The notes under the pieces were generated by a model. The model worked only from the letters and a program-made list of their open reading frames with translations, was not told the DNA's origin and searched no databases. Of a DNA stretch of 64,000 nucleotides, positions 1 through 64,000 are shown one piece after another. This DNA comes from Heterotrichella gracilis (lineage: Eukaryota > Sar > Xanthophyceae > Tribonematales > Xanthonemataceae), in assembly GCA_032358255.1 (NCBI GenBank), contig JAULBX010000448.1:1-64000 (forward strand). Reading direction: 5' to 3'. The translations under genes were made by a program, and so were the position numbers. Position 1 is the stretch's first letter. The number at the start of each line of letters is the position of its first letter.

Positions 1-3000
1 CCCACCCCTCCACCCCACCACTCACCCTCCCGCTCCACTCCGGCAGCGCCTGCAGCTCCGCTATACACCGCGGGATGGCCTCAGGCTCAGCCAGCTCGAT
101 GTATGCAGAGCACCCATCGGGCAGCATGGTCACTCGCACCCTGCCCAGCCCCGCGCTGGTGCACTGCTGCAGGATGTCGTTGAATCGGGTGCCGGGGCGC
201 AGGGCGGAGAGGTGGAAGAATCGGGAGCGGTCGGGGTGGGCGTCGGGGCCGAAGAGGGACGCGTAGGGGATGTCGGTCCTGGAGGGGTGGGGGGTTGGGG
301 GGTGGGTGGGGGAGGAAAGGAGAGGGGGGGTGCTGGTGGGGGTTTTCATGCTGTAATGAGGTGAGGGGTTTAGGGTTTGGACGGGATCCCTGAACCATAA
401 CCCAGTGCACAATGCACAGAATCCAACGTCAAAGGGGCCAGCCAATTAGAATTTGACTCGACCATTAACAGCCCAGTTAGGGGAATTCGACTCGCCCCAT
501 TGATTCACAGACCATTCAGCCAACCAGTGACTTCATAAGTGTCCCTCCAACAGCCTTGTGAGTCCGGGTTGGCACCCTGAATGTGACTGACAAATAAACC
601 TTGTAACCTTTTGTAACTGACCCACCTCGACATGTTGAGCCTGCCATTGAACTCCTGCACAGCCTCCAGCGAAGGCGGGACACTGGCATCCCCTTCCCCC
701 CTGCCCTGTGTTGCCTCCCGTAGCCTCAGCATGCATGCAAACGCCGCTCCCGTCATGTATGCGTCAAATCCCGCCTCGTGCGAGTACTGGTCCACACTCA
801 CGCCCTAGGGATGGGGGACAAGGATTCAGCATATATGCAAATTGCAAGTTTCATATTTGAATTTAAAAGCTGGAAACTGAAAAATAAAGTACGGGTCCCA
901 TTAATGTTCTTAATTTCAATCAAACACAGCCTGTCCTTAACATGCAAATGCTGCTCCCATCATGTCTGACTCGAAGCCTGCTTCTTGCGAGTACTGGTTC
1001 ACACACACACCCCGGGACCAGCGGTACGCAAGGCAGGGATGAAAAGCAGAAAGGGATGTACAAACAGCACATTTCCAACAGCATTCCCAAAAACGCATGA
1101 AAACGCATTCCACGTGCATCCATTCACGGCCAAGGCATGAACCTACACCCCCCCTTGCAAGCAACCCATGCATCTTCCTGCAAAGCTATCCCCTAACCCC
1201 CAAACCCTGAATCCCCTTCCTTCCCTGTCACTCACGTCATATCGCTCGTACCCCGCTGCATGCCCCACCCCCGGCAGCTGCTTTCCCTCCCCTCCCAACA
1301 CCTCCTCCACCTCCTGCTGTAGCCCCCCTTGGAGCAGGCCCTGGTACACGTCCCCCAGGGTGGTGTTGTTCTGCGGGGCCACAGGGGGGAAAGGGGTCAC
1401 AGGGGGAATGGAATCAAAGGGGTGGATTTCGTCACCAGGAGAAAGGAACTTTGGGGGGAAAAAGGGTCACACAAGGGGATCCTTGAAGGGGTGCATAGGG
1501 TATTTGCAAAACACCACACCAGTCAACTTTGCAGTGCGATTGTCCTGGAGGTAAGGCGTAGAAAACACGACACTCTCCGCCCTCCACCTCACCCCCTACA
1601 CCCCCCAAACACCTCCGACAACTGGTACGCCGGTCCAGGAAGGCGTACAATACCCTATCCCCCGATACTCTAGACCCTGCACCCCCCACCACTCACCCGG
1701 AACACCTCCGGCAACTGGTACGCCAGGTACTTCGTATCCAATAGCCCCCCTGGGAACCACTCCTGTGCCAGCGCCTTATACATCTGCCACGTCAGCGGCA
1801 GCGGCTCCGCAAACGACTCCAGGGAGTATGCCAGGTCGTGTGCCAGGTTGTGCCCCACACCGGGCTTGCCGCTGTCCCGCATGAGCTCAAACACTGCTGA
1901 AAAGCCTACGATGGTGGGTGGTGGAGGGGGTGGGGAGTGGGTGCGGGAGGGGGAGTGCTGCGCATGTGATTGGGTGGTATATGTGGGGTTTAGGGTTTAG
2001 GGTTTAGGGTTTAGAGTTTAGGGTTTAGTGAATATGCGAGGTCGTGCGCCAGGTTGTGCCCCACGCCGGGCTTGCCGCTGTCCCGCATGAGCTCAAACAC
2101 TGCTGAAAAGCCTGTGGTGGGAGACTGGGTAAGTGGGGAGCCAGGGGAAGAGGCATGCGTGTGGTAATGGGATTGCATGAAATTGGAACCGGGGCTGCCA
2201 CAACTGCGGTTTGCCTGCAGAGCAGCACCATGGTCGTGCCCTGATGAAACCCTAACCCTACTTTCCAAAGGAGGCCACCCACCCGTCGCATGCCAGGCAG
2301 CCGTTCCTTGTGCCTCTAGGGGCCACATGCGCACACCACTCCACCCACCTGCCGAAACCCTAGCCCCTAGATCTAAACCCTAAACCCTCCACTCACCGGC
2401 CGCCTGGTGAATGTCATCCACCCGCCGCTGCCTCTTCTCCTCATGGTGTGCTGCAACCTCCTCCGGGGTGGCGCGCACCAGCGCAAGGGTCTGGTACCCT
2501 GCCTCATTCAAGGCTTTCTGCAAGGGGGATTTAGGGTTTAGGGTTTTGTAGCCACCTGGTCGGGGGTGGCGCGCACCAGCGCAAAGGTACCCTGTGTTCC
2601 CCTCCTTGCGCACTTACATACTCCCCCCCTCCACCCAACCCCACCTTGATGTAGAACCCTGGAGGGTGTTGCGCCCCAAACTGGTCCTTGTCCAGCTGCT
2701 GGTACAGGATGGCGCGCTGGTACGAGTTGACGCTCTCAAGCACCAGCTCAGGCTCGTCGCCCTACAGGGTTTGCAAAGACATGTTAGGGTTCTCGATAGG
2801 GATTTAAAGGTGGTGGTGCCACTTGACACTTTCAAGCACAAGCTCCGGCTTGTCACCCTACAGGGTTTTTGCAGCGACACATTAGGGTTTCTCATAGGGT
2901 TTTTATGCGACACGTGGTGGTGCCAGTTGACGCTGTCTAGGTCTGGCTCGTCACCCTACAGGGTTTTGCACCATAATGCGCCGGGAACCTAAGGAAGAAC

Positions 3001-5395
3001 GCCGACAAGTGCAGGCTACCCCCCTGGGGTTCAGATCCTATGTGGCCTATATTCTCACAGAAACCCTATAGGGTTCAGCACCATCATTTTCGTGCTCAGG
3101 GTATACACCAAACCCTACAAAAATGGCGCACACATTCAGGAAAACCTAGCAGCACACCTACTGTGGCCAGGCGTTGACCGTGGTCCCCACAATTGCCCTG
3201 TAGGGTTTGACGACACACCACAGGAAACCCTACGTAGGGTTTGGTGCAACCCTCACCTGCAGCCACCTGCTGACTGTAGCCCTCATCTGCTCTGCAAAGG
3301 CCACATCCTCTGCCTTGCGCAGCAGGATCTCACGGAACTCGCGCTCGTCATCAAGCTGCGGGGGCAAGGGGTGCGCAACAGCATGATTAGGGTTAAGGGT
3401 TTGAGGTTTAGAGTTTTGGACATCGCGCTCGTCATCAAGCTGTGGGGGCAAGGGGTGCGCAACAGCATGCTCAGGGTTAACGCTTTAGGGTTTCAAGTTT
3501 GGTGTTTATGACATCGCCCTTGTGATCAGGTTCAAGGGGTTTAGGGTTTAGGGTTTCAAGTTTGGTGTTTATGACACCGCCCTTGTGATCAGCTGCGAGG
3601 GGTTTAGGGTTCAGGGTTTCAAGTTTAGGGTTTCTGACACCGCCCTTGTGATCAGGTGCGAGGGGTTTAGGGTTTAGGGTTTGAAGTTTAGGGTTTATGA
3701 CACCGCCCTTGTGATCAGGTGCGAGGGGTTGCGCACAGAGTTTGTCTCTAAAAATGACTACTACGGCTCACTTGTGTGTGGATATGATAGGGTATGCGGC
3801 TGCGCATTGGATTGTGCAAGATATAAAACAGAAAAGAAGACAGGGTTTTACAGGAATAATGATTACAAGGGTACTGAGCACTGGTTCCTGATACAGTCCC
3901 TAATGATGACTCATCAATAGGAACTGTATCGGAAAGAACTGCACAGTACACTTGTAGGCATTACTCCTGGAAACATTGACAACTACAACATGTGTGGTCA
4001 CGCGCAATGGAGGGGCACACGGAACCACACCACGCCACCGCGCGCACCTGCGCCAGCTTAGCGTCTCTGAGCGCCACCGGCATGAACTCCATGCCCTAAA
4101 CCCTAAACCTAAACCCTCGACAGTGCATGTTGGCCACCATGATACTACGTACCTGCGCCAGCTTAGCGTCTCTGAGCGACACCGGCATGAACCCCACACC
4201 CTACACATGAAACCCTAGACCCTCTATCCTAAATCCTAAGCAGTCCATGTTGTTCCCCACCTGCGCCAGCTTTGCGTCCCTGAACGACACCGGCATGAAC
4301 CCCACTCCCTGCCTGATTGCCTTGTTGAAGTCAAAGCCCTGGCTGGCAAGGAAGGCAATGGAGGAGGCCTGTGTGACAGACACGCCAAGTTATTTTATTG
4401 TATTATCCCTATTTTGAAGCCATGCCGAGGTTGCGACAAGTGCTGCGGAGAGGGTGCGGATTTTGCGGTGCAGGGTTTTGTACCTATGGTGTCCACATTC
4501 ACGGTTTTAAACTCTGTACAGGGGCTGATGCCTGGAGCAACCAGAGAGGCGATGCATGGGAAGTGGGTATGCCATGAACCTAGGGTGCCCATGTAACCCT
4601 GTGTTAAAGTTTCCAATGCCTGTGCGAGGTGGTGCTGGATGCAGGCGCTGTAAAACGAAATGAAGGTTGGAAAGGATATTGAATCTTGCCACGAGGATGG
4701 TTCCTGCGATGCGTTTGCACCTGTCCCAAACCCTGGGATGCGCACCTGGGACAGGAAGCGCTTGTCGTACTTTTCAAACGGCCGTGGGAAGAGGTAGAAG
4801 TTAAATGTGCGCGCTGCATAGCGGCCCCCCTCCCACACAAAGGCCGACAGGCCAAACTGGTTGATCACAAACTGCTGAGAGCTGTCCAGCATCTGCAAGC
4901 GGGGTGTGGTGTGGCGCTGAGACTGACTGGCATATATGCGCGAGTGGGTGTGGGTGGCATATATGCGCGTATGGGTGTGGGTGGGGTTGGGGTTGAGAGA
5001 GGGTCTAGGTGTGTGTCGATGTGGGTGTGGGGTGGGGCGAGGCGCTGTGAGCTGCAGGCTGGTGATACCGGTCCTATATATCGTCCATGTAATCGGATTT
5101 CTGTACCCCAAACGCTAACCCCAAACCCCAAAACCCGCACCTGCTGGTAGCGGTCCTCTATCTCGTCCAGATAGTCCGACTTCTGCTCGTCCACGTACAG
5201 CCCGGTCATCTCGCAGTCAAATGCAAAGAACTGGCACTGCTGCAGCGCCTCGTGCACCAGCGGCAGCGTGGCCTGGAAGTTGTCGAAGGTGACCTGGAGG
5301 GGTGGGGCACGGGGCTCAATAGGTGGCGTCATGGTCGCATGGCGAGGACGTTTAGATGGCATGGCGAGCCCGGTGATGAAGAGACTTGCTTGCAT
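1..5395 (-). CDS. PARN: PARN, poly(A)-specific ribonuclease (3' end missing at window edge)
   Basis: This DEDD-family 3'-5' exoribonuclease shortens mRNA poly(A) tails. Exons on the minus strand: 5395-5141, 4892-4746, 4368-4261, 3355-3257, 2761-2645, 2517-2397, 1905-1697, 1370-1236, 804-626, 278-26, then off the edge. They give about 541 residues; the human protein has about 639. All junctions are GT-AG and in phase. Catalytic motifs are visible: FAFDCEMTGL (Asp and Glu), then IEDRYQQ, LSAFVWEGG, FNFYLFPRPF and FLASQGFDFNKAIRQG, then GKPGVGHNLAHDLAYS, and HEAGFDAYMTG with the last His and Asp. The 278-26 exon starts the RNA-binding RRM-like part. The start is uncertain: the ATG at 5395 or 5332 reads straight into the first conserved exon, but a polypyrimidine-AG just before 5293 could instead be an acceptor with an unseen upstream exon. 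Several introns carry partial copies of flanking exon edges. Confidence 0.93.
940..1015 (-). repeat. Copy of PARN exon edge (804-626 exon start)
   Basis: This intronic stretch repeats 731-808 with scattered substitutions. It covers the acceptor region and the first part of the exon carrying the catalytic HEAGFDAY motif. The copy still reads EAGFESDMMGAAFAC-like residues before it degrades. Confidence 0.8.
1986..2115 (-). repeat. Telomere-type TTTAGGG run plus copy of PARN exon start
   Basis: About six TTTAGGG-like units (1986-2035) run directly into a near-identical copy (about 2028-2115) of the 5' half of exon 1905-1697, including its acceptor AG. The copy ends exactly where the telomere-like units begin. 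Confidence 0.88.
2545..2593 (-). repeat. Copy of part of PARN exon 2517-2397
   Basis: It repeats about 2461-2502 (the segment GGTGGCGCGCACCAGCGCAA) upstream of the exon in the transcription direction, and is joined to TTTAGGGTTTAGGG at 2528-2545. Confidence 0.75.
2810..2970 (-). repeat. Two copies of the PARN exon 2761-2645 start
   Basis: Segments at about 2819-2872 and 2926-2966 repeat the exon start and acceptor (about 2722-2775). Each ends in CCCTACAGGGTTT, the same sequence that forms the real acceptor. Confidence 0.75.
3341..3740 (-). repeat. Tandem array grown from a PARN exon start
   Basis: Six units begin at 3341 (inside exon 3355-3257), 3425, 3516, 3579, 3642 and 3705. The spacing is 84, 91, 63, 63 and 63 bases. 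The first copy is close to the exon edge; later ones are decayed and separated by GGGGTTTAGGGTTTAGGG tracts. This is a minisatellite seeded by an exon-intron junction. Confidence 0.85.
4039..4205 (-). repeat. Two copies of the PARN exon 4368-4261 end
   Basis: Copies at about 4039-4095 and 4147-4203 repeat the exon end and donor (4255-4305, CCTGCGCCAGCTT on the plus strand), with CCCTAAACC-type sequence between them. Confidence 0.85.
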
Positions 5396-6575: not shown

Positions 6576-8859
6576 ATGGTCAGCTTGCTTCACAACTTGA
6601 CTGCAGAAACCAACCCGGACCGAATCGGCCGGGTCAAAGTGGTGGTACTTGGCAACACAGGTGAGCTACATACTACCCACGTCACTCGCTTTCGCCTGTG
6701 GCATCACCATGGACGGAATCTGTTGGTAGGGCTGGGACCACCCCACTAACCAGGCTGTTTGTCTCTCACCCCTGTCTGTTCCTCAAATAACACCCTACTG
6801 CATCAGGTGAGGCCGATTGTGGTTCGCAGGCTCGGGCAAGACCACGCTTGCCCACCTCATCGCACATGGCAAGCCCCAAAAGGGGTCGAGCCACACAGTG
6901 GGGTGCAACATCTTTGTCAAGGTAGGGTTCAGGGTTTAGGGTGCTTGCCATACTGCACCCATTCCTTGCAACCACCGTGGATGGGCTTACATCGTTCAGA
7001 GTGCTTTTGAACTACCTGGTAGAGCTACTGGCTGTGCTGTGAAGCGGACCGAGGCGAAGCTTGTGCTTTTGTGTGTGCAGTTGATAGAGACCTTTGACGG
7101 GACCGGGACCCAGCCCCGCTTTGTGGAGCTATGGGACGTGGGTAAGTACTGCTTAGGGTTCAGGAGTTGGGGTTTAGGGTCGAGCTACAGTGGTAGCCAC
7201 AGCCTCACCCCACCGGGCCTCACCAGGGTGCTCCCGCATTGCAGTGCACTGCACGCTCACAGGCTCATGCATTCACTCGTACCTTGCCGCAGCTGAGTTC
7301 ACCCCAGGTTGAAAATTTTCTTGTGCCGGATGAGGGTTTAGGGTCTAGAGTCTCATATATTGCCCTTGTGTAGGGTCATGGTTCAGGGTTTGATGCATGG
7401 CCCTTGCGCAGGTGCCCACGAGCGCTACGCCAGCATGCGCAGCCTGTTCTACTCGCAAGTGAACGGGGTCATTCTGGTGCACGACATGTCATTCACAAGG
7501 TGAGCACGCAAAACCACCCTAAAGCACCACCACACTACACCACATAACACCACACAACACAGCACCACCACCCCGCACTTTCCACAACCCATGACGCCAC
7601 GCCACGCCACTGCCCCACCCTATCCCATCACATCCACCAAACGCCTCCCCTACCTGTCTTCCCTCCCCTCCACCCCCACCTTGCCACCACACGCAATCAT
7701 CGCCTGCTTACCACCCCTCTTCCCACACAAAGCCCCATGCCCTGGACCCTCTCCTGCAGGTCCCAATCCAGCCTGCACAAGTGGGCAGTGGAGGTGGCCC
7801 AGAAGGGCAGCTTCCAGGCGCCCTACAGCGCTGACCTGGCAGGTGGCAACCTGGGGGGTCTGCCTGTGCCCTGCCTGGTGGTGGGAAACAAGGCGGACCT
7901 GCTGGGGGCAAGGCACGCACACAGCAGGTGAGGGCACAGGGTTTAGGGTTTAGGGTTTACAACAGGCCAGGGAAATGGAGATAGATAATGCATGCATTGT
8001 TTGCAGCAGGTGAGGGGATGAATGCAATGCTCGGTGGAGCACCTCTGCAACCATATGAACCGCAGCCAGCATAGAATGGAACGATGGAACAATGCATTGC
8101 TGCAACACTTTGTGTATCAGTTGCAGGCAGTTCCTGGACGGACTTGCCCCCAACCACTGAGCATGTGCCCCCCCCTATAATCCATCCCCCCTACCACGCC
8201 CCACACGCTTTCCAGCCCTCTGACCCCCGTAATTTACACGCAAGGGCGCGACGACGATCCCTGGTCTCCCATTGGCTCGAGCGCCTGGCCAGCCTCCTGC
8301 ACCTGCAGCAGTAAATCATGCACATTGTGCTAGGTCTCGTCCTGCACGGCAAATGCATCGCAAAACTGCTGTGTCATCACCCCCTCACCCCCCATGCCCC
8401 GGATGCATCCTTTCTAGCTCTCTGACCCCCCGTATTTGGCATCCCAGGGCGCGGCGGCGATCCCTGGTCTCCCACTGGCTTGAGCGCCTGGCCAGCCTCC
8501 TGCACCTGCAGCAGTGGATGGTGCGCCTGCACGCCACCATGCAGCGCATAAAGTCGCTCCCAGACGTGGGCAACGGGGCGGGTGGCATCACCGCCGCGGC
8601 CCTCCACGGGGATTTGGACACCGAGGCGGTGGATGCGTTTTTTCGGGAGCTGGTGGAGCGGCGGTTCCATCCCATGGCGGGTGCCGGGGGTGGGTTTGGG
8701 GGCTCGCTGGCGGGTGGGGTGGTGGGTGGTGTGTCCCTGGGGGGATTAGGGGCGGGGGAGGTGGCGGGCATGTCGCCTAAGCGGAATGCGAGTGGCGGGG
8801 CGGGGGGTGCGTTTTTGTATGGTGAGGGGAGCGGGCGCATCGACGATGCTTATGTGTAG
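6576..8859 (+). CDS. LIP1: LIP1/RABL3-like small GTPase
   Basis: This Ras-superfamily GTPase resembles Arabidopsis LIP1 (light-insensitive period 1) and animal RABL3. Exons: 6576-6660, 6830-6921, 7081-7141, 7412-7499, 7760-7927, 8448-8859. They total 906 nt, 301 residues, with every phase consistent. The P-loop GNTGSGKT is at residues 26-33. The G3 region reads ELWDVGAHERY instead of DTAGQE, which is characteristic of this subfamily. Then come LFYSQVNGVILVHD, SLHKWAVEVA, and the G4 motif GNKADL after GLPVPCLVV. The C-terminal half matches the family's RIKSLPDVG and AFFRELVERRF blocks and ends in a Gly-rich tail. No C-terminal prenylation Cys motif is seen, as in LIP1/RABL3. Arabidopsis LIP1 affects the circadian clock; a clock role here is inference. 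A copy of the last exon's start lies in the final intron. Confidence 0.95.
7355..7413 (+). repeat. Duplicated acceptor region in a LIP1 intron
   Basis: ATTGCCCTTGTGTAGGGT (about 7362-7379) resembles CATGGCCCTTGCGCAGGT (about 7396-7413), the real acceptor of exon 7412-7499. TTTAGGG and TTCAGGG motifs lie between. Confidence 0.5.
8178..8311 (+). repeat. Copy of LIP1 last-exon start with acceptor, ending in a stop
   Basis: About 130 bases repeat 8390-8518, including intron, AG acceptor and the first 67 exon bases encoding RARRRSLVSHWLERLASLLHL. In the copy the reading continues to CAGCAG and then TAA. Splicing to this copy would therefore truncate the protein, unless the GTAAAT that overlaps the stop acts as a donor. 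Confidence 0.88.
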
Positions 8860-10142
8860 GGGGCGCAATAATCCTTGGACAGCCCTCGGTGTGCTGCTTA
8901 TTGTCAGTGGGCCAGTGGGGTTGTTAATTTTCAATGCAACCTGCCAGCATGTCGAGGTCGCAGGGTGCGTAATCAACAGTATACAGTTTGTGCTCTCAAG
9001 ATCAGCTCGTCCTCCTGCAATCCAGGGTCGGCGTTTTGGCCCCAGGGATCGCTCCAAGTTGGTTCCTGTGCATGCAATTACTACAAGCATATTTATTTAA
9101 TTACAAGCAAAAACAAATTCCTACATTGAATGCTTAAAATGGTTATCGCCACAGCAACATTGATGTGCATTCAGTTGCTGTGGCTGTCAGATTCTGAATT
9201 GCCCAGTTCATTGCCAATGGATGGAACAATTGGTGATCGGTAAATTAAATTAATCATTGGCAGTGTCTGAACCCACTCGACATCGATGGTGAGGCAGCAG
9301 GCACTGCACCCAAACATGCTCTCTGCCCATTGCCTGAATACGAGCACTGCTACAATCAATTGACGACTGAAGTGGCGGCCATGAAGCAGTCAATATGAGG
9401 CGTAGCCTGTGGAGCACACGGCAAATCGCTTACGCCATACAGCAAATTCGCGAGCTGAGCATGGCCGACTGCTGTGAAGAAGAATGCACAGGGTTGAATC
9501 CATAATCCAAGCACTATTATTATAATAATACCAAAAAAAACGAAACCAGGCACCCCTGCCAGGCCCCCCACCAAGTATGAAAAAGGTACAATTATACAAG
9601 GAGCGCGTAACCTTATACCCTCAGGGTAATCCACCAATCCCTGCATATGCCATGCATGGTAAGCTGCAGCAATGTCACCCACATGCCCTGCGTAGCGCAA
9701 CCCCTCACACAGCCAACTACCCTGCCGCGCTACCCTCAATGCCCCACGCATGACGGGGTAAATGGCATGAATCCCCACACGCCGCCCAGCAACGCATCCT
9801 TTTGCCCCCCCTCCCCTCCCTCTCTCCGCCCCACCCGCCCCACCACTCAGCGCCCCATGCGCGACGGCGTAAAGGACTTCGCCAGCTCTTAAGGTTTAGA
9901 ATTGACCCAACCTCAGCCTTCAACCTGCCACTCCATCCCTCAGCGCCCCACGCACAAATGGATGGAGAGCGATCAGGGTCTAGGGTTTTGACCCAAACCC
10001 TAAACCCTCAGCGCCCCACGCACAAATGTATGGAGAGCGTAAGCAGCGCCACATCCCACCCCGCGTCCCCACAGAACCACACCTCCCACGTTCCGCCTTG
10101 AGCGCGATCAGGGTCTTGGGTTTTGACCCAAACCCTAAACCC
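8860..10142. other. Convergent region LIP1 / RAMA-CW gene
   Basis: 3' flanks of two convergent genes. About 8860-9720 is AT-richer with no supported gene. About 9722-10064 holds four decayed copies of the RAMA-CW gene's last exon end. A further 3' exon of that gene cannot be excluded. Confidence 0.5.
9722..10064 (-). repeat. Four copies of the RAMA-CW last-exon end
   Basis: Segments at about 9733-9760, 9846-9885, 9944-9968 and 10009-10062 each repeat the exon end around 10140-10190, with the shared core CAGCGCCCCACGCA. Two are followed on the plus strand by the same GATCAGGGTCT..TTTTGACCCAAACCCTAAACCCT-type linker (about 9969-10010 and 10104-10144). Confidence 0.8.
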
Positions 10143-12074
10143 TCAGCGCCCCACGCAGGAGGGCGTGAATGGCGTCAGCAGCGCCACGTCCCAGCGCGCG
10201 TCCTCACAGAACCACACGTCACGCGTGTCTGCCTCCACCCCTGGCCAGTGGTCGTCGGGCACGATGCGCCAGGTGCGGCACCTATCGCACTGCACCCACT
10301 GGTCGGTGCCGGTCTCGGCGATGGGCTCCTCGGGGGGGGGCTGGGGGGCGACGGGGAGGAGGTCCGTCTCGTCGTCCAGCTCAATGTCCTGCATGGGGAG
10401 GGTTGAGGATTAAGGGTTTAAGTATAGAGTTTAGGGGTTGGCTCGAAGTCCTGCAGGGGGAGGGGTGGGTGTAGATGCGAGGGGAGGTGCTAGTGCGTGT
10501 GTGTGCAGCATTGAGTACCTGCATTGCCTCTCACTGAAAACTGGGGCATTTTACCACCTTGCCCACCACCTCAAATTTCACATTTTTCATGATACATCAA
10601 TTCAGATTGATTCTGTAGATGACCCACTGAGGGTTGAAATGATTCCACTGCGGCAATGAGAAAATCTGGATATTCCATGAGATTCTGGATATTTTGGACA
10701 GATTCAGGAGGCGATAAGAGAAGCATGATGCACCCAGCACCAAGCGCATGCTCTTCCACCACCCCGCCGCCGCACCTCGTCCACCGCCGAAGCATTCTTG
10801 CTTGGCTTTGCCGTGCGCACGCGCTGGTAGTACTGCTTGCGGTAGTGCTCCAACGGCTGGTTGTCATACATCACGCTCTTCCACCCGTCATCGCCCTGCT
10901 TGTTGGGGGTCTGTAGGCGTTTGCAGTGGATGGAGAAGGAGGTGGCGGACTGGAACTTCTTGCCTGGGGAGGTGGTGGAGTAATTAATTTAATGCGACAA
11001 TGCGGGTGCAGTGTGCTAGAACTCCTGGCCTAGTATGCATGCACCTGACAAGCCGAGAGTACCGCCAGGTGTGCCATGGATGGTCCTTGCGGCCTGCAAT
11101 GACAGCCCCGCCCACCTTGGTAAATGATCATGCCCTCCTTGGTGAGGTTGGCCAGGTAGGCAGTCCCCTTGTACACCACGCTGATCTTGTTCTTGCCGGG
11201 AACAATCACCCCCGCGTCTATCAGGTCGGCCAGGGTCATGCTGCCGCGCCCCTTCTTGATAACATTCTTCTTGGCCTTCTTGCCACCACCGGACTGCGGC
11301 TCCATGGGCGTGGAGTCATCCAGCGCATCTGCAGGCGTGCATGGGAAGGTTCAGGGTTCACGCATTAGGGTCTACGGTTTAGTAATATGCTGGTGCTCCG
11401 GCCCTTCTTGATCATGTTCTTCTTGGCCTTCTTGCCGCATCCAGACTGCGGCTCCATGGGCGTGGAGTCGTCCAGCGCATCTGCAGCGTGCATGGGAGGA
11501 TTTAGGGTTCAAAGTGTGGGGTTTAGGGTTTGGTAATGTGCGCCCTTATTGATCACATTTGTTCTTGGCTGTACTGCCCCCTCCTGCATCTGCATGTATG
11601 CCTTGCGCTCAACTCGTAGGGATACAAGGTAGGTGTGTATGCGTGCCCCAGTAGTGGGATGCATCCACCAGTGGCCGCCACAACTGCCTTTGTACGCACC
11701 CGGCCTTTGCACATACACCATCTCTGGGTGACAAACAATTTCATCCCTGGGGGACAAACAGTCTCAGTAGAGTACAAGCTTGTATATTGAATATGTACAA
11801 TATGTGCAATATGCGTTCACCCTTGCAGGCAGGATGGGCCCTGCAGGGACGTTTGCAATACCCCTCCTGAAGTGCTGTTCTTACCTTCCGAGATGCGCTG
11901 CCCCAGCTGCAGTATCCTGTGCGTGGTGCCGCTGATGAAGGGGCCCTGCCTCAGGGTGGACAGCGCTAACCGGGGGGGCGGGGCAAAGGACACGCCAGGC
12001 AGGTGCTGCTGGTGGTGCTGCTGCTGGAACTCGTCGATGCCGCTGAAAGCCACAGTCTTGTGCTTCGTGGCCAT
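10143..12074 (-). CDS. RAMA-domain plus CW-zinc-finger protein (putative chromatin reader)
   Basis: Exons: 12074-11885, 11328-11116, 10963-10776, 10388-10143; 278 residues if the stop at 10143 is used. The ATG at 12074 begins MATKHKTVAFSGID. Residues about 97-175 match the RAMA fold: TLADLIDAGVIVPGKNK, the YKGTAYLANLTKEGMIIYQ strands, then FQSATSFSIHCKRLQ and DDGWKSVMY. Residues about 228-276 are a CW zinc finger: WVQCDRCRTWRIVP with paired Cys, then WFCED and a late Cys. An acidic and Pro-rich linker joins the two. CW fingers read histone H3K4 methylation in known proteins; RAMA is found fused to DNA-methylation and JAB/MPN enzymes and in the mammalian 6mA-linked protein MPND. The role here is inference. 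The final Cys sits at the exon end with a possible donor (TGC|GTGGGG), so one more exon may exist. Confidence 0.82.
11400..11500 (-). repeat. Copy of the RAMA-CW exon 2 start
   Basis: It repeats about 11240-11336 (first half of exon 11328-11116 with its acceptor) at high identity, flanked by TTTAGGGTT-type motifs at 11500-11530. It sits upstream of the real exon in the transcription direction. Confidence 0.88.
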
Positions 12075-13529: not shown

Positions 13530-16500
13530 ATGCGGTCCCGACGGCACCGAACCGCCGACGTGCACTCCACCGCCGCCTCGTTCTCGGAGCTGCTCCTGCC
13601 GCCGGCCATCCTCCGCGGCCTCACGGACCAGGGGTTGGTGCAGCCCTCCCCCGTGCAGCAGCAGGCAATACCGTTGGGAAGGGTTGGGGTGGACCTCCTG
13701 GTGCAGGCGAAGTCGGGCACAGGGAAGACCCTAGTGTACACCGTCATTACCCTAGAGAAGGTCAATTTGGAGGTGCCCATCCCCCAGGTGAGCCGCACCC
13801 CGTGCAGACAGTGGTTTAGGGTTTAGGGTTTAGGGTTCACTATACCCTAGGGTTCGCCACAGCTGGGCTCCTGCGCCTGCAGATCAGATATGTATGTACC
13901 ACAATCATCTTTCAGAATGACCGGGGTCCATGGTCCAGTCACCTCTCTTACCACCCTGGCAACCTCTTGCCAGCACCTAGTGGCATCCACGCCATGGCTC
14001 TAGAGCTCCCCTATGCAGGTGCTGGCCCAAGCACCCATCCCAAGAGATTGCCCTGCAAACCCTATTCATCCTCACTGGAGGTGGTGCTCATCCTTGCCCC
14101 CAACCCAGGAGATTTTACTGCAAACCCCTGCTGCAAACCCTATTCACCCCCACCGCAGGTGCTCATCCTTGCCCCCACCCGGGAGATTGCCCTGCAGAGC
14201 GCCGAGGTGATGGCCACCATAGGCTGCCACCTGGCAGGGCCTGAGCTGCGCATCGGGGTGTTCATAGGAGGGTTCCCGATCGAGGATGACATCCAGTACC
14301 TGCACAGGTGAGGTCAAAGGGCATGCAAATCGCAACCTGCATGTGAGGTGTCTGATGAGGGCCTGGGGGGGATGGCAATGCAGCAAGGTGCACGTGCTGC
14401 CGCCGTTGCGCCAAGGGCATTGCAGCAGCACAACAGGAGTCTAACCAGGCGCATGCAACACTCAGTGCATGTCATGCTTGCGCGCCCATGTGGCCTCTCA
14501 CCTAGGCGCACCCCTTGCCCGCATCTTGGCACCCACAGCCAAAGCTTGGCAACACACACCTGCCCCCTTGGAAGGAGCTTGCATTGTCGAACTTTTTCCC
14601 CCATCCCTCAGGGGCTGCCACGTGGCGGTGGGCACCCCCGGCCGCCTGTGCGCGCTGCTTGAGTCCGGCGCCCTGTCCACCTCGCGCATGCACACCCTGG
14701 TGCTGGATGAGGCGGACAAGCTGCTGGGGGAAAGCTTCAGCCCCGATGTGACGTGGATACATGGCTGCCTGGCGGAGCGGAACCGACAGGTGAGGCTTTT
14801 TTGCAGCCCGGCAACGACAATGGAATCCAGGTGTATGTCAGGTTGTACTCTACATATATCAGTTTTTAATATCAGGGTTTTCGTGGTTCAAGTGACTCTT
14901 GGCGGCGATGGCCTGGCCTTCAGGGCCACCTACTCGCCTGGGACCCTAGCCCTGGCTAAACCCTTAGGTTTTAGGGTTTAGGTGACCCTAAAACCCCCAT
15001 TCATCGTGGGGTGCATCTTGCAGGTGATGGCCTTCAGCGCCACCTACACGCCCGAGACCCTAGCCCTGGCCGAGACCCTAATGACCCGCCCCCACCGGGT
15101 GATGCTGTGTGGGGACACGGTGTCGCTGGTAGGGGTGAGGCAGTACTACAGGCTGGTGGCAGGTGGGGCGGTGGGGGTGGTGGGGGGTGGGTGGGGGGCA
15201 GGGTGGGTGGCCATCGGTATCCTTGTGTGCATCGGAGCTTTGGGTTCCACATAGAGCAATTCTCAATGCAAAGGAAGTTGGTCCTGCACTAGGGAGGCTA
15301 GCAAGGATCTGGATCAACTCGGGAATTGAGATCATGAGCGCAACCGGTGCATGGGCCTGCTTGCATTGTTGCCTCCTGCCCTCAAATTTACCCTCCACTC
15401 CCTTCCAACCTTCCTTCCTCCCTTCCCCCAGGGGCTGCCGGCACCCCCGAGGGCTACCTGGACCGCCTGCCCGCCCTGCTGCACCTGCTGTCCTCCCACC
15501 CCTTCCACCAGGCGGTGGTGTTCTGCAACAGCAAGCCAAGGGCGGAGTGGCTGGCAGGGGAGCTGAGCAAAGCAGGTGGGAGGGGAGGGTGCGCGCGAAT
15601 GGTCAGGGGGGAAGTTGTATTATAGTCCCTTGGAATGGTGGTGGGAGGTTTATGTACCTGCCCCCGCAAACTAATGGTAAAAGCCCCAGGGAGTAAAGAA
15701 GCAAGCAACAACTTTTCCCCCATCTTTTGCACAAGTTCTCAAAACCCTAAACATAAACCATAACCCCTGACCCTCCAACCCTACACCCCCATTGGCGCAG
15801 GCTACCCTTCCGCCCACCTGTCCTCCTCCCAAACCCAAGTGGAGCGCATCGACGCAATGGAATCCCTGAAAGCCTTCCGCCTGCGGGTGGTGGTATCCAC
15901 CGACCTGGTGGCAAGGGGGGTGGACCTGGAGAGGGTGAATTTGGTGGCAAATTTGGACCTCCCGGTGGATGCGGCCACCTACATGCACCGGGTGGGAAGA
16001 ACAGGGCGGTTTGGCACCAGGGGGGTGGCGGTGACATTATTGAATGGGGAGGAGCTGGAGCGGCTGCGGGGGTACCTGGTGGATGTGGCGGGGGGGGAGG
16101 TGAGGGGGGAGGTGAGGGGAGAAGGGAGGGGTGTCTGAGGGCTGTGGCGGGAGGGGCAAAGAGGATGGTGTGATTTGATTTGTGATGGGCGGTGTCAGGG
16201 CAGCTTGCTGCCTTGGGATCATGGCAATCCCAAGACGGGCGGCTGGGTAGGATGGGGCTTGGGAGTGATGCCCTGATATGCTTGTGGTGGGGCTGCGGAG
16301 TGCGCAGAGTAATCGAGTGTTCTTTTAATTCCTTTTGCATCACACGCATTTCATGCAGGCACTCCGCGTTTGAGGAATTCTGCAAGGTCTAGTGTTGGAA
16401 CTGCGACCCTGTAGGAAATGTGGCCATTTAAAAATTATGTGGGATTTTGGTGCCATTTGCTTTCCCCATGTGCCTCAGGTGAGCCCCATGCCTGACCGCA

Positions 16501-19810: not shown

Positions 19811-22800
19811 CTACACCACACGCTCACCCGCCCGCACTGCGATGAGGGCTGTGACGAAGCGCGAGGCGTTGTCTTTCTTGAACTGCAAGCCACAAACCAC
19901 CCATAAAAAACAGCAGGTGCTGGCTCTGTGTGCGCGCCTGGGTGCATGGCTGCACACCAATCCATGGCTGTGCCCTCATGACGCAACGGCATGTGCATTT
20001 ACCACACCACAGTGCAAAGTCATAGCCACGTGGGATCAATAGGTGGTTCAAACACTGCCAGGAAAGAGCTGCTTGGCGCAGCATGTGCAAGACTGACTGC
20101 CATTCTGGCTGCATTGTGAAATGCATGTAACTTACTGACACTGCACAGTGGTCCATGAGGAATGCTCACCTTGACGATGTTCTCATCAAACGTGGGCTGA
20201 TACTCCATTTCCAGGTACTCCATCGCGCCCTCAAAGGCGGTGCCCCATGTGTTGCGCTGCGACACACACACACACATCTGTCAGGCCATGCGCACCTCCC
20301 CCAAATCAAACGCTACACATGGTGCACATGTAGCTTGAGGACCAAATCGATTAGCATCAGTAATCAGCAGTAGCCCATTTGCAATGCAATCCAGACGTAC
20401 ACTCTCCTTGGGTTGCCTGGAGAAAGGTGCCGCGTGATAACCAGTGCTGCAGTCGCCAGGCCCTACCTCGTTTGGAGTTGGGATGCCAACGGCATACACC
20501 ATGCCATCCTCAGTGGCTGGGCTGATGATGACCACCGATTGCAGCTTGGATGTTATCCTAAAGTGCGCATACTGGAAGAAGGAGGCCAGTCGGGACAAGG
20601 ACTGGCCGTTCAGCTGCACAGCACATCGAGCAAGGGTTAGCAAGTCAGCCATGTTGACTATTAGTTAATCAATTGCAAGCATACCAGCAGTACAGCGAGG
20701 GTAGCACATTTTCACCCTTGTGCAGCTTGCACCACTGAGCTGTGTCTTGGCAGGCCCTGCCAGCATGTGCAATCTGAAGATCCGTGGTGACCAGGGGCAT
20801 CCGTGTCAGTGACATTCCATGAATGACTTGGGCAAGACAGGTACCACACCAGCAACGCTCATGACAATGCGCCCCGGTGGTTTGCAGGCTGCACACAACT
20901 TCCAAAATTTGACCCATACGGGGCACCCAACATGTTGCATGCACTTCCCGCCAGTGCAGGGGTATCCCTGGCCATCGTACCAGCAGCCTGGCAGCGGTGA
21001 CATTTATACGACCAAGCTTGCACCCATAAATCCCCATAACATGTGGGATAGAGTGGTCGGACATCCATGTTCACTTTTTGGCACTGGACATGGCACGCGT
21101 ACCAGCAGCCTGGCGGTGGTGAAGTCCTTTGCAGACAGGTCATACATGACCACGTTGATCTTCCGCTGGTACCTCCCCATGGCCCCCAGCAGCACCAGGC
21201 CCCCGTCCAGCATGAGCGCCTTCTGCATCTTCTTGGCCAGCTGGATGCCAGTGGACAGCCAGTCATCGGGGTCCCGGGGGTTCAGAGCCGCGCACGCGTT
21301 GCTGCAAAGAACCAGGGCGGGGTGGGTGTCAGTGGGTGATTGTTAGTGGATGCTGAAGTGCACATGAAACGCGGGTTCTGCGCCGCGCAGGCGTTGCTGC
21401 AATGCAGCGCAGGGTGGGTGCCAGTAGGTTGTGGCCAGGGTGGTTGTCTGTGAGTGTCGAAGTGCAGGAACGTGAATTGTGCGTAGGGAATGCATCGCGA
21501 TACGATGCAGCTTGAGGGAGACGGGTTGATGGGTGAAATGAGTGTTTTTGTTGCTTACACGTTGCTATAGGCTACATGCTGTAGAGTTTCGCCACCAGCA
21601 AACAGTCTCAGGGCAGCAGTTTGGCGCAAACCCCATTTAAATGCGCCACCTGTATGGTGCACATTGGCACAAATCCCCAGTGCAAACTGTCACACTTACT
21701 TGAACCTCTCTGCAGGCAAGCCGTTCATGCTGTCTGATGAGTCCAAGATGGCTGTGACAGCCATGGCCACGTCCTGCGCCATGTACTTGCAGGAGTAGCC
21801 GTCCTGCATCATGAAGGACTTGAACATGGCGTCGCTGATGCGGAACTGGGGCCCGTACTCCTGCAGCCGCTCAGCCAGAACAGACTTGTGGATGGTCTTC
21901 ATGGTGGCTGCACCGGAGGCCAAGCAAGTGCGTGTCAGTAACAACCATGGTGGCTGCGAGGGAAGCCAAGCAATCGCATGTCCGTAACCGTCTCCAGTGC
22001 TCCAGATAGTTTACTGCGCTACCTCCATGACTCTGAAACCATCATTGCTAAGCAATTTGGTGATGGCTAGTTTTGCTGTATTCTTTTCATGCCTGTTTTC
22101 ATACTTATGAATTTGATGGGATTAAATTTCCAATATTTTGAGGTGTACTTTTTCAAATTGCTCAAGTTGACAGTTCCTTTAAGTGTAGGAACTCAGGTCT
22201 GTGGCGATTTGGTCAAGGCTGTGAGCACATGTAGCTGTGGTATCTAGCTGCTGACTCACCCCATGGCCCCTTTGCCTGCTGTATGGGTATGCCCATCATG
22301 GCCATGAGGCACTCCACGTTGCGCTTGCCCTTGCCCGTCCACGTCTGCAGCCTGGTGCTGACATACGTGCTGTTGATCATGGCGTCGAACAGCGTCCACT
22401 CCCGCAGCAAAGGGAACCTAAAGTCCTCCTCGGGGCTGCACGAGGAAATGCCATGATTAGGATTCAGTGGTAGGGTTTAGCACTGGCCACGCCAGGCACT
22501 CCAGTAGAAGGTGCCTCCCAAAGTGTCTACTACAGTATGCGCCCAAATACTACCTCCAGCCCAGGTGCACGTACCAGAAGTGGCCATACACAGCCTTGTT
22601 GATGACAGTGTTGTCCTCCAGCACCTCTGTTGTTTCTTGGTCAGCATACCCCGAGCTGATGATCTGCAGGGAGTGACCACGCGCCCACTTAGCTTGTGAA
22701 TGTGCACTGCAGGACGTGTAGGCCAAGAACGAGGTTTGTGTGCACCATACCCTAAACCCTACCTCGCGTTCAATCTCCTGCCGGTACTCCTCGTAGCGCT

Positions 22801-44574: not shown

Positions 44575-44636
44575 GGCGGGCAGGGGATGGTTTAGGGTTT
44601 AGGGTTTGGGTTTGACTGCGCAGAGGGGTGTGTGCA

Positions 44637-44750
44637 AGGCCCTAGGGTGGGGGGCAAGGCGCTGGCACAGATATTTGCATATGACTGAGGGGGCAGATAT
44701 TTGCACACACAAGTGGGGACGCACATGGTTGCATACGACTGGAGGAGGGG
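44637..44750 (+). repeat. Copy of the SEC10 last-exon end, downstream of the stop
   Basis: GGGTGGGGGGCAAGGCGCTG, ATATTTGCATATGACTGAGG (about 44645-44693) repeat the last codons and stop at 44529-44580. A weaker third trace (TTGCATACGACTGG) lies at about 44729. The same sequence resembles the start of SEC10 exon 10. Confidence 0.85.
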
Positions 44751-46502: not shown

Positions 46503-49500
46503 CTATAGTTTCTCCCATTGCCCTTCGTGGATCGCCTGCACCATGGCAACCTCCCGATCGGTCCTGATGTACTGATCGATGTCATCATCGTCCAGCAAAT
46601 GGCTGTCCACGTCAGACCCGGAATCCAAATCCCCACCGCTGCACCGTCCGCCATCCTCAGGCTGCTCTGGGACCAGGCGCAGCCTCAGCTCCTCCTCAAC
46701 AAATTCCTCCACGCCGCCCGAAATGTCGCAGAAATCTGCGCATTCCAAGGTGCCCGGTGGCAAGCTGAGGGGCGCACCGCTGGGCACCGCCATCGCCATG
46801 TCATGGTCAGAGGGTGCTGATTTTGAGTTAGGGTTTAGGGTCCCGTTGGGCGACAGTCGTCTGCTCCTGCGGGTGGAGGGGGGCGAGGAGGGAGGCTTCG
46901 CCTGGCCCGATCCTCCATTGGCGGCCCTGTTTCGCCTGGCGCGGGGGCTGACCACGGCAACGGAAGGAGGTTCCGCCTGGCCTGATGTCCCCCCGGCGCT
47001 GCTTCGCCTGGCGCGGGGGCTGACCACGGCAGGAGCTTCCGCCTGGCCCGATGCGCCGCCTGCGGCACTGATTCGCCTGGCGCGCTTGCCTGTCCCTGCT
47101 GGCTGCTGCTGTGCGGGTGGTCCAAGGGGTGGTACTGGTGCTGGTGTGGGTGCTGGTGTGGGTGAACCCTGTGACCTGACAGCGGTGGTGGGGTGTGTGG
47201 GGTAGGCGGTGGGGGTGTCCTCCCCTCCCGCGCTCCGTCTCCGCTTGCGTGCATTCCCCCCCTGGCTGGCCCCGGGTGGGGCGCTCGCAAGGACCGCCCC
47301 CCCACCTTCCCTCCCGTCTGCCTCCCCTGCATCCTCCTCATCGCTGGCACCCACCGCCCCCTCCTCCCCACCCGCCGCCACCCCCACCGCCGCCGCCACC
47401 CCAGCTCGCGCGCGGTACTCCAGCGTCCTCTGCACGTCCACCAGCCGGACCACAGTGGGCAGGAAATGCACCACATTTTGGCGGGAAAGGGGCCCCAGCC
47501 ACGGCAGGCGGGGTGCCGAATGCACCAGCATTTCCTTCACCCGTGGCACCCCCCCGGCCACTGTGCGGGGCCCCACCATGCACACCTGCGCCACGTGCTG
47601 GTATAGCTGGACTGCGCACCCCTTGGCCAGGCCAACCTGCAATGGAATAAACGGGATTTAAAATAAAGACGATTATGATTGGAATGAAACGCTTAATACA
47701 AAATCATGAAGGATCAGTGAAATAGAGCAAATAAGATACCATAGACCAAAATTGGACTCTGATGAAATCGGTCCACATAGCTGGGGAACACGTTTCTTGA
47801 TCTGGATGTGCAGCATATGCAGGGATTCGATTTCACATGTGCGCCAGCGGGGCCCTCACACCCCCCATCCGCTCCTACCCCCCACCCACCCACCATACAC
47901 AGTCCATACACCCCACCACACCCACCCACATCACCCCCCCACCCACCACACCACCACTCCTACCCCCCCCCACCATACGCACCACCCCCACCACCCACAT
48001 GTACCCCACCACCCCACCCCACCACCCTCCCCTCCCCCCACCCACCTGGTGATGTTCCGCAGCCAGCGCCAGCACTGTAGCCAACACGCCCTGCCCGTAC
48101 CGAAACCCCTCGTCCCACTTTTCCAAAAAGTCGTACAGCAGCAGCGCATCCCCGGTGACGCGCTCCCGGAAATCCGCCACATTTTGCGCCACATGACCCC
48201 CGCCGATGGGCTCCATTTGTGCGGCAAACCGGCGGATGACGGCGTGGGCGTCCACAGGGGGTGTGCACAGGTCCAGCTTTGCACCCAGGACCTACGAGGG
48301 GTGGGGGATGGGGTTGGGGGTTGGGGAGGGGTCAGTTGAGGAGGGTTGAGGTTTAAGGGATTGCACACAACCTGACAGATTCCCGAAAGGGTTTCTCCAG
48401 GGTTTTCCAAGGGTCCCTGGAACCAGTGCCCCAAGGTTTGAATTTCAACGTCTCCCAAGGACCCACAGCGCACGTGAAACCATATTGTTTAGGTCTTCCC
48501 CAGGTTTCCATGGCGCACCTGAAACCAGTGCCCGATGGCGTGCACGCCCCGCTGCACCGCCGCCGCCACATCCATCAGCGTCAGCGGCGCCCCGTGGCGG
48601 CGCGCAGCCAGGGCAGCCACCGCACCCAGCAGCGTGACCCTTTCGGTGTTTGTGGGCATGCGGTGGACCTGGGCCAGGATGCCTTGTGCGTCTTCGCAGG
48701 CGGGCTGGGGGAGGCGCAGCGCGCGGCACACCGAGGTGAGCTCAAAGCGCGCCTTGTCCTGTGGGGTTCGGGGTAGGGTTTATTAGGGTTTAGGGGCTGT
48801 GGCGCATGGTGCATCAGACCGCGGCGAGGCCTTGTGGTTTTGGCTATGAATTTGGGGTATAGGGTCTAAACCCTAAGAAACTGCTTAACAGGGATTACGG
48901 GGCGGCCAGTTTGTGCTCAGCATGCGCATTTGCTTTTAGATGGATTCTGAACACATGCTCAGCCAGAGAGAACGCATGGCCATGCACATGTGCACTGGGA
49001 AAGAAGTGCCAAAACCCTTAACCCTTCCCTAGGGTGTTACCTTGTTGCTGTACTCAAAGTAGCGCTGCTGGTGCCCCGTGCGCATGTGCTGGGCCCCTGC
49101 AGGTGCAGAGGGGTAGGGTCAACGCGTGGGGCGTAAGGTATTAGGCGTTGGGGTTTGAGGGTGTAGGGTTCACAGGTGCTTTGCCCCTGCCGTGGGAATG
49201 GTAGCTATATGGGGGTTAAGCTTGAGGGTTTGCCCTACAGTCGGCCCTAGGTTTGAACAAGCGTAGAGACCGCTCCCATTGCCACGCAGGTGTGCGTGCA
49301 GTGGCCAGTCCACAAGTGGGTGCTGTGGCTGGTGGTGCGGGGGTGGGTGCAGTGACGTTGGTGCAGGGGTGGGTACAGTGGCTGGTGCTGGAGTGGATGC
49401 AGTGTCTAGTGCAGTGGCTGCTTTGCCCGTGGGTGCAGTGGCTGGTGCAGGGGTGGGTGCAGTGGCTGGTGGAGGTGTATTGCCAGCAAGCACCCCAAGT

Positions 49501-54183: not shown

Positions 54184-59966
<5,783 letters not shown>

Positions 59967-62340: not shown

Positions 62341-64000
62341 TCAATACGACCACTCTGCTGGCAGTCCACCAGTGGTAGGTGGAGATGCAACACCTGCAGG
62401 AGGGAGGCAAGCCACTGTGAGCCAACCATGGGTTGGTGGGTTGTTAAGCAGACAGGTAGTCACTCGGTTGTGCCTGTGTTCAACCAATACACATATAGAA
62501 CCCTGACTTGGCCACTTGTCACCCACAGCCTCCACCAGTTGTTAAGCAGACAGGTAGTGACTCGATTGTGCCTGTGTTCCAAACAATGTACATATAGAAC
62601 CCTGACTTGGGCAGTTGTCACCCACAGCCTTCACCAGCTGGCAGTCCCTGCCACCTGGCTCCCACAATCAACAAGTGCAAACAAACGACCAAACACCTAA
62701 AAAGAGCCCTTACCAGCTTCCTCCTCCGCCTCTGCTGCCGCGCCGCAGTCAGACAGCGCCGAGCCAGACCTGCTGCTGGTCAGGGACTCGATCGTGACGT
62801 GGGACTCGGCAGAGGAAGTGCTGGAGGCGCTGCGGGAGCGTCCGGGGAGGAACACGCCCGTGCCCCCCTCCACGGTCGACATCGGCTTGGGCACGGGGGG
62901 TGTCCAGCTGGGCGCACGGGTCATGAGGGGGCTCTGGTGCTTCTGGGGCACCTGGTGCACTGGGCGGGCAGGGAAGGCGCCTGACGGAGGCTGCGGCATC
63001 GAGCAGCTCCTCATGTCGGGCCCCGGCTGGGGACGCCCGGTGTTGGGCCTGATGCTGCCACCACGAGACGGCCTCCTGGTGAAAGCATCGGGCCTGCGAG
63101 ACATGGCAAGGATTTATTAGTCCGGTGCCAGTGAAAGTTGAATTTGGAACAATGCCCTGTATGTCCTTGGAAGCGCACAAGCAAACCACATAACCATAGC
63201 GAGACACAAGCGAGCGAGTCAACGTTCGCAAGCAAGAGCGAGTTTGAACTAGGCGGTACTATGGGAGAGCTGCACTATCGGCAGTCGGCTTACGTGAGGC
63301 ATGCCGGAACCCCGCAGCGAGACACGACATCTAGCCACTTTGGGTCAACCACCAACCCTCACCTGTAGTCGAAGTTGGCAGAGGGCCGCCTCTCCGCGTG
63401 CATGACAGGCGCCACCTGCTGGTACAGGCTCTGGTAGTAGCTATTGTGGGGCTTGTCCACAGCGTAGGGCGATGGGGTGGGTGCAGGGCCCCCATGCTGG
63501 CGAAACACTGGCTGCTGCAGAGGTGGGGCAGGGGCTGGGGCTGGTGCCTCGCCAGGCGCCATGTAGTTTTGGGCGATCTGATGCAGCGTTGCCGATTTGA
63601 GGTTGTCGAGAAGGTCGGCCAGTAGGATGAGGCTGTGCAGCGAGTTCTCGGGTGCCTGGAAAGCCAAAACGCCGACACGCGTGAGGCCATGCCAGCAGGC
63701 AGGGAATAACACGTTGCGAAGGGCAACCCAAGCGGTTGGCAGCAAGGATGCAGTGGGTGGCGTGCAAAGGCGTGACGCCGCCACGCAAGCTCATGGCAGA
63801 AAACTGTGTGCAAACACACGGCTTGGCCTGCCCTCAGCGTACCTCTACCCCAAGCTCCCGCTGTTCAAACCCAGCCACGGGCGCCACCATAGCCGCAGGA
63901 GCCTGTATGTCACACACAGCAGAGCGTTAGCAAGGTGTGCACCAGGTCTGCATCCAGGTACAGGGCACACGAGACAAAACGTGTGTAGGATGGCCCCTAC
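62341..64000 (-). CDS. Unrecognised protein, 3' part (5' end beyond window)
   Basis: Exons: 63902-63843, 63655-63363, 63093-62714, 62393-62341 (stop TGA); 261 residues visible, all phases consistent, with more exons off the right edge. The only ordered-looking part is one amphipathic helix pair (SLHSLILLADLLDNLKSATL). The rest is low complexity: a Pro/Ala run, a Tyr/Gln-rich YYQSLYQQ, Arg/Pro-rich sequence, then a Ser-rich stretch (SRSASSTSSAES) that may be phosphorylated, and the end GLPAEWSY. I do not recognise the family. Coding support comes from matching GT-AG phases, GC-rich third positions and the long open exon. No exon-edge copies or TTTAGGG motifs are seen. Confidence 0.7.
62441..62640. 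repeat. 98-bp tandem direct repeat
   Basis: 62441-62538 and 62539-62640 both begin TTGTTAAGCAGACAGGTAGT and contain ACATATAGAACCCTGACTTG. They lie in the last intron of the right-edge gene and differ by a few substitutions and short indels. Confidence 0.92.

Follow-up and report, generated by a model that had tools for sequence, protein, structure and literature searches.

The window analysed here comprises bases 1-64000 of contig 7 in the assembly of the xanthophyte alga Heterotrichella gracilis (68.5 Mb, 903 contigs). It carries genes resembling PARN, LIP1, RAMA-CW, DDX20, CDC45, PRL1, SEC10, TFIIB and PRMT3, together with a bZIP gene and a further gene at the right edge. A preliminary description of this DNA had claimed that, in the nine genes named first, segments spanning an exon edge and its splice site are repeated in the adjacent intron next to telomere-type tracts of TTTAGGG or CCCTAAA. 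We find that the duplication pattern is real and extends beyond the window, and that it is associated with the telomeric motif.

Exon-edge duplicates in the window and in a genome sample

The genome is rich in introns. Genes were modelled with a purpose-written gene finder trained on the window, on a comparison sample of 18 loci of 10 kb picked by position, and on the loci L001-L008. This resulted in 249 confident exons, with donors reading CAG before GTGAG or GTGGG and acceptors reading YGCAG before G, and in a median intron of ~331 bp, taken over the 158 introns that have a confident exon on either side. Exon edges and gene-end stop codons are predictions of this gene finder throughout. Of 20 loci picked, L014 and L009 are not among the 18. 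L009 was left out for its base composition (35.7% G+C, where the remaining 10-kb loci range over 50-61%); it is located on the largest contig seen (C1:20001-30000; 894 kb) and may be foreign.

When one exon from each of ten genes was compared with Pfam, seven agreed with the name given (CAF1 nuclease, RAMA, helicase C, CDC45, bZIP, WD40 and Sec10), and the single exons of LIP1, TFIIB and PRMT3 gave no match. The alignment of the spliced PRL1 product with PLRG1 covers almost its whole length (692 bits); its best-scoring PDB homologue is 8xi2_T, a Chlamydomonas entry, and this match and the plant-type telomere repeat are the two features that would suggest a green alga. The spliced PRMT3 product aligned with arginine methyltransferases from residue 201 onward. 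For both products, the alignments to PDB homologues are unbroken over three duplicated edges (29748, 30558 and 57608).

Duplicates were identified by self-comparison with BLAST (Basic Local Alignment Search Tool; E ≤ 1e-4 for the window and ≤ 1e-5 for the loci). Matches in which at least half of the bases were telomeric were removed, and those of at least 30 bp with a lag between copies of at most 450 bp were clustered. In total, we identified 85 local clusters, 28 in the window and 57 in 13 of the 18 loci, which comprise 53 pairs of a coding edge with a non-coding partner, 8 of a mid-exon segment with non-coding sequence, 18 that are non-coding within genes, 3 intergenic pairs and 3 exon-exon pairs. 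The non-overlapping clusters of the window (n = 28) confirm that exon-edge copies exist there: 21 couple a coding edge to a non-coding partner, three join a mid-exon to an intron and four are non-coding only. Counted for each edge by one uniform procedure (800-bp windows, E ≤ 0.01), a duplicate is present at 34 of the 207 donors and at 28 of the 217 acceptors called with confidence, or about 15% of splice edges.

Identity between copies ranges from 69 to 99% (median 84%), which indicates that the copies differ in age, as had been proposed, and that the process was spread over time. Because almost all lags are shorter than 260 bp (84 of the 85 clusters, although clustering allowed up to 450 bp), the inserted sequence appears to have been copied from nearby DNA.

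The list of nine affected genes was largely borne out, with eight of them holding all 24 window clusters that touch a confident exon. The exception is the TFIIB-like gene, whose two clusters were both classed as non-coding, the one at 46895 touching an exon that scored under the cut and the one at 49316 being low-complexity. The bZIP and right-edge genes had been described as free of tracts and copies; this is correct for the bZIP stretch, which has neither a duplicate nor an exact motif, but the right-edge gene contains the pair 62440-62541/62538-62640. Nor are all duplicated edges splice sites, since some are predicted stop-codon ends (44530 and 9965 in the window; 7 of 54 duplicated edges overall).

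The pair 55804/56020 (55804-56204; 85 bp, 99% identical) adjoins an assembly gap of 100 N and may be a scaffold artefact, probably duplicated contig ends; a further copy of its sequence, 86% identical, lies on contig C24. An inverted pair 25 kb apart (20029-20139/45402-45512, 87%) is perhaps a dispersed element. Annotators should be aware that array copies may be taken for exons. In PRMT3, the array unit 59036-59065 was modelled as an extra mini-exon at a position where the aligned PRMT homologue is gapped, possibly reflecting exonisation or a model error.

Table 1. Local duplicates in the window, 26 of 28 clusters; the pair 55804/56020 (N gap) and the cluster at 49316 (low-complexity) are left out
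Gene	Interval	Strand	Duplicated part	Lag (bp)	Identity (%)
PARN	734-1012	-	exon start 734-805, copy 941-1012	207	81
PARN	1568-1724	-	exon end in 1663-1724, copy 1568-1631	95	77
PARN	1821-2113	-	exon start 1821-1907, copy 2027-2113; (TTTAGGG)n at ~1986-2028 between	206	94
PARN	2453-2588	-	exon piece 2453-2490, copy 2551-2588; TTTAGGG between	98	87
PARN	2718-2967	-	array of exon start	96	76
PARN	3339-3730	-	array of exon start with telomeric units	periods 84 and 63	82
PARN	4043-4310	-	exon end, three copies, telomeric seams	105	79
LIP1-like	8208-8515	+	acceptor and exon start in 8410-8515, copy 8208-8312; no motif	202	88
RAMA-CW	9937-10234	-	coding end with predicted stop codon (edge 9965); copy 9937-9971/10005-10039, TAGGG...CCCTAAA seam	135	84-97
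RAMA-CW	11239-11569	-	exon start, telomeric motif	152	78
DDX20-like	14053-14196	+	exon start, plain tandem	78	83
DDX20-like	14914-15070	+	exon start, copy upstream; seam TTTAGGG...CCCTAAA 14970-14992	114	91
CDC45	21275-21429	-	exon start, no motif	95	81
PRL1	29717-29866	+	exon end 29717-29748 plus 12 nt intron, copy 29823-29866; TTTAGGG seam 29767-29780; edge backed by PLRG1 alignment	106	93
PRL1	30412-30600	+	exon start, copy upstream, CCCTAAA; edge (30558) backed by PLRG1 alignment	97	86
SEC10	37852-38139	+	exon end, three copies, CCCTAAA in each unit	93	87
SEC10	41079-41282	+	exon end, no motif	128	78
SEC10	41498-42258	+	multi-copy exon-start array with CCCTAAA units	112/241	89 (lag 241)
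SEC10	43830-44002	+	exon start, CCCTAAA	94	84
SEC10	44530-44696	+	coding end with predicted stop codon, copy downstream, TTTAGGG seam	114	89
TFIIB-like	46895-47084	-	one copy in weakly scored exon, classed non-coding; no motif	140	82
PRMT3	54343-54576	+	exon end, three copies, CCCTAAA	75	85
PRMT3	57541-57736	+	exon end 68 nt plus 7 nt intron, copy 57661-57736; CCCTAAA seam; edge backed by PRMT alignment	120	91
PRMT3	58227-58482	+	exon, copy upstream, no exact motif	203	81
PRMT3	58754-59205	+	exon-start array, about four copies, CCCTAAA	115	79
Right-edge gene	62440-62640	-	intronic tandem duplication, no motif, no exon edge	98	90

Telomere-type motifs and two spacing classes

The motif TTTAGGG/CCCTAAA occurs 82 times in the window, a 12-fold excess over dinucleotide-preserving shuffles (6.7, standard deviation 2.7), and exact three-repeat telomere matches number 834 genome-wide, overlapping ones included (406 forward, 428 reverse; 0 in the control). 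The proposed association between the motif and duplication holds at donors, where a motif no more than 60 nt away goes with duplication at 14 of 25 sites, compared to 20 of 182 sites lacking one (p = 1e-6), and at acceptors (7/20 and 21/197, respectively; p = 0.007). It also holds at newly picked sites. From 150 matches of the pattern CAGGTGGGT-N0-15-TTTAGGG, the first 21 were taken as 20 regions of 800 bp; in 11 of these 20 regions, picked for this pattern only, the donor edge is duplicated, which exceeds the overall donor rate given above (p = 0.0003). Similarly, 50 of 126 non-coding motif clusters are located inside duplicate spans, where 14.3 are expected from non-coding coverage (maximum of 2000 draws, 25), as are 4 of 11 in 40 kb fetched later (1.1 expected). 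The statement that most copies start or end at TTTAGGG tracts was, however, too strong: the exact motif lies within or at most 10 bp from the span in 16 of the 28 window clusters, and it is missing from those of CDC45 and the LIP1-like and TFIIB-like genes.

The copies fall into two spacing classes. Lags of the first 84 clusters are described better by two normal components, at 107.6 (standard deviation 20.1) and 203.8 (17.6), than by one (Bayesian information criterion 860 compared to 902), and a single mode is rejected (Silverman p = 0.003; we quote Silverman's test rather than the Rayleigh test, which has a very broad null). When 11 clusters from the later 40 kb are added, the one-mode p-value is 0.0055, or 0.007 once the pair adjoining the N gap is excluded; the lags of the later 40 kb are less clearly two-peaked, with 3 of 11 in the trough at 143-173. 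The telomere link is confined to the short (~108 bp) class. Among spans with a lag of at most 160 bp, 29 of 57 contain the motif compared to 5.9 in matched unduplicated spans, and in the longer (~204 bp) class the count is 5 of 27, with 3.0 expected (difference between classes, p = 0.008). Of the bases in simple short-class pairs, 268 of the 1525 in gaps (17.6%) belong to the motif, compared to 56 of the 3177 in copies (1.8%); lying between the copies and hardly within them, the motif occupies the position of a filler at the junction.

Any proposed mechanism has to account for this spacing in two sizes, which offers a quantitative clue. Nicking at the scale of nucleosomes is our guess for what lies behind it. 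No clear intron-length period near 105 nt was found. The fillers of some long-class pairs (L018 9445, L022 9695) appear by eye to be diverged tandem halves. A negative correlation between copy and gap length within a class was discarded because the class is defined by the sum of the two lengths, which in part produces such a correlation, and over 49 pairs it vanishes (rho -0.14).

Genome-wide, CAGGTGNG-N0-15-TTTAGGG is found 658 times and the corresponding pattern ending in CCCTAAA 504 times, overlapping matches included, with 12 and 5 matches for the reversed controls, which are unfair because reversal destroys both motifs. A strong tendency of the motif to hug donors was rejected as well, since non-coding motif density alone gives ~336 for either pattern (scaled from the sample), leaving an excess of 1.5 to 2-fold at most. 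Donor-plus-motif sites recur 104-112 bp apart, e.g., at C23:72994, 73106 and 73218 or at C45:109992 and 110096, in line with the short class.

Probable break repair and alternative explanations

We favour the explanation that the duplicates are scars of breaks mended by tandem duplication, with telomeric DNA as filler, which we consider probable. Among the processes suggested in the preliminary description, repair with telomere-like filler is the best fit, given that the motif is placed between the copies, that its association with duplication recurs at new sites, and that part of one filler (L011 3735-3877) repeats the flank upstream of it in inverted form. Together with the seam in PRL1, in which a partial extra copy is visible by eye, such compound seams may support repair by copying. 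Offset nicks leading to a staggered break, or a switch of template, would copy tens to about a hundred-plus local bases in tandem, and short TTTAGGG or CCCTAAA DNA, with other bases, would in many cases be placed in the seam. The copies would mostly come to lie ~108 bp apart, the spacing at which telomeric seams occur, or ~204 bp apart, where such seams are mostly lacking, and some duplicates would later expand into arrays. Selection would remove events within exons, and intronic or single-edge-spanning ones would persist; edge duplicates would also be recognisable for longer because one copy is still exon. Here we infer that breaks are the cause and that the filler comes from telomerase or from captured telomere DNA, and we also infer the order of events. 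Most likely, the introns lengthen as they take up copies of the adjoining exon ends, which then decay. We advance only tentatively the more far-reaching possibility that break repair routinely involves telomerase or captured telomere DNA, sealing tandem duplications with the ~108 and ~204 bp spacings, so that approximately 1 in 7 splice edges is scarred and introns grow by self-copying exon ends.

Several observations weigh against repair with telomeric filler. The fillers are mostly unlike the local flanks, with 5 of 28 short-class gaps ranking in the best 5% against the flanks of other loci, and the exact motif is absent from 28 of the 57 short-class spans. Where present, it shows no clear excess near a copy boundary (15 of 23 within 8 nt, 11.6 expected), and its orientation in the gaps reveals no telomerase polarity (concordant half in 14 of 25, no better than chance). 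No second allele was found in the organism's own genome for the one gene region searched, and insertion of the copies and tracts is presumed from a single genome. The tendency of donor-type pairs to stop close to the edge, described below, belongs here as well.

A process aimed at exon-intron junctions, for example through R-loops, had been considered in the preliminary description, but it is mostly unneeded. If tandem units of the observed sizes are placed neutrally and exons are left intact, the share that spans an edge is 50% for introns at their present length and 67% when each intron is made one unit shorter; exons are touched by 61 of 79 clusters, exon-exon and intergenic pairs excluded. 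The anticipated excess of edge over mid-exon copies is present, with a coverage of 0.11 over the 10 exon bases closest to a donor, compared to 0.038 in the middle of exons (n = 197) and 0.056 in the middle of introns (n = 158), but it is to be expected because selection predicts the same. It can further be argued that edge pairs decay more slowly, one copy being constrained. The location at edges is therefore mostly a product of selection and unit size, and we consider it unlikely that breaks or template switches favour coding/non-coding boundaries through R-loops, spliceosome-linked nicks or chromatin edges. Such targeting would account for the drop in coverage just past the donor (from 0.11 to 0.06 at +10 and beyond, the partner copies peaking at +80 to +110) and for the donor-type pairs with a gap of at least 20 nt, 13 of 17 of which stop within 20 nt of the edge compared to 7.5 expected (p = 0.005; one exon-exon pair dropped). 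All seven of these pairs with at least 89% identity, the youngest, end 2-13 nt past the edge. This short non-coding part at donors could be a real preference or an alignment-end effect. At acceptors, there is no clear excess (4 of 8 within 20 nt, 2.9 expected, p = 0.31), and the stop-codon ends among the duplicated edges, including three of the 17 pairs, indicate that splicing is not needed. Moreover, only 3 of the 11 clusters in the later 40 kb touch a predicted exon, although these loci are exon-poor (34 exons).

A different order of events, in which telomere tracts came first and acted as fragile sites that triggered local duplication, would explain the strong association between motif and duplication, and instability is a known property of interstitial telomeric tracts (PMC6410037). 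At L023, the motif occurs in both units. We nevertheless regard this order as quite unlikely, since it predicts the motif in both copies or flanking the pair, whereas it lies mainly between them, in the proportions given above. It seems improbable that the motifs are retained for splicing, with CCCTAAA serving as branch site and pyrimidine tract, and that the duplications are incidental. All 20 motif-bearing acceptors of the window and the 18 loci (motif within 60 nt) have CCCTAAA and none has TTTAGGG alone, and converging TTTAGGG..CCCTAAA outnumbers the reverse order by 200 to 71 genome-wide (overlapping ones included), as expected if TTTAGGG is kept off acceptors; at donors, however, both orientations occur (11 and 14) and both are linked to duplication (5/11 and 9/14 compared to 20/182), and the motif excess resides in short-class duplicates. 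The acceptor pattern looks as if the AG-containing TTTAGGG were barred ahead of the 3′ splice site. We dropped a reading of the 200:71 ratio as fused new telomeres because acceptors lack TTTAGGG. An assembly artefact could be suspected from the near-identical pair beside the N gap, but in view of the median copy identity and of clusters in 13 of the 18 sampled loci, none of which contains an N, it is very improbable as a general explanation, with that pair as the exception.

Comparison with known systems

Introner elements, in which one sequence family supplies intron sequence gained in many genes, resemble the present case in that intron sequence was gained in many genes of an alga, but the units described here copy each gene's own edge rather than one family. 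A 6-kb PRMT3 stretch had 16 matches elsewhere, 14 of them at 59284-59453 (low-complexity), one at the second 55804 copy and one at the exon holding the 57541 copy; its seams had no match elsewhere in the genome in this one region searched. Judging from these matches, the duplicates probably do not represent an introner family.

Intron gain by tandem genomic duplication, as outlined in PMC3296678, likewise involves gene segments that carry splice signals and are copied in tandem. In the present case, the partner copy is placed within an intron that already exists and becomes longer, and no new intron arises. Two copies supplying the donor and acceptor of a new intron was not the pattern found: exon-exon pairs account for 3 of 85 clusters, and the usual partner is within an intron. 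The suggested route to new or sliding introns is thus unsupported, and existing introns are enlarged instead. Patch duplications in rice, attributed to asymmetric nicks (Vaughn and Bennetzen 2014, as described in PMC7407515), are also tandem or partly tandem insertions of local sequence, some of them compound, but the description given in PMC7407515 is of insertions without telomeric filler or two-class spacing, both of which are present here.

Among the titles and abstract openings listed by our searches of open-licence PubMed Central, we found no description of telomere-filled exon-edge duplications, which is weak evidence of novelty. The closest counterpart on the telomeric side are the interstitial telomeric sequences inserted at mammalian breaks (Nergadze et al. 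2007, PMC2246262), where a short telomere-repeat tract at an internal site is flanked by a duplication in some loci. Few of the loci reported in that account have a duplication (6/130 in rodents and 4/25 in primates), whereas here a duplicate is present at 14 of the 25 donors that have the motif close by, and many of the tracts are degenerate and situated within genes. Both kinds of scar, telomere repeats where breaks were repaired and short duplications from repair, are known, in the accounts cited as uncommon or separate events; it is their frequency and pairing that are unusual in this alga. If the two are coupled and common, they would constitute a natural record of break sealing, of intron lengthening and of spare splice sites arising beside exons.

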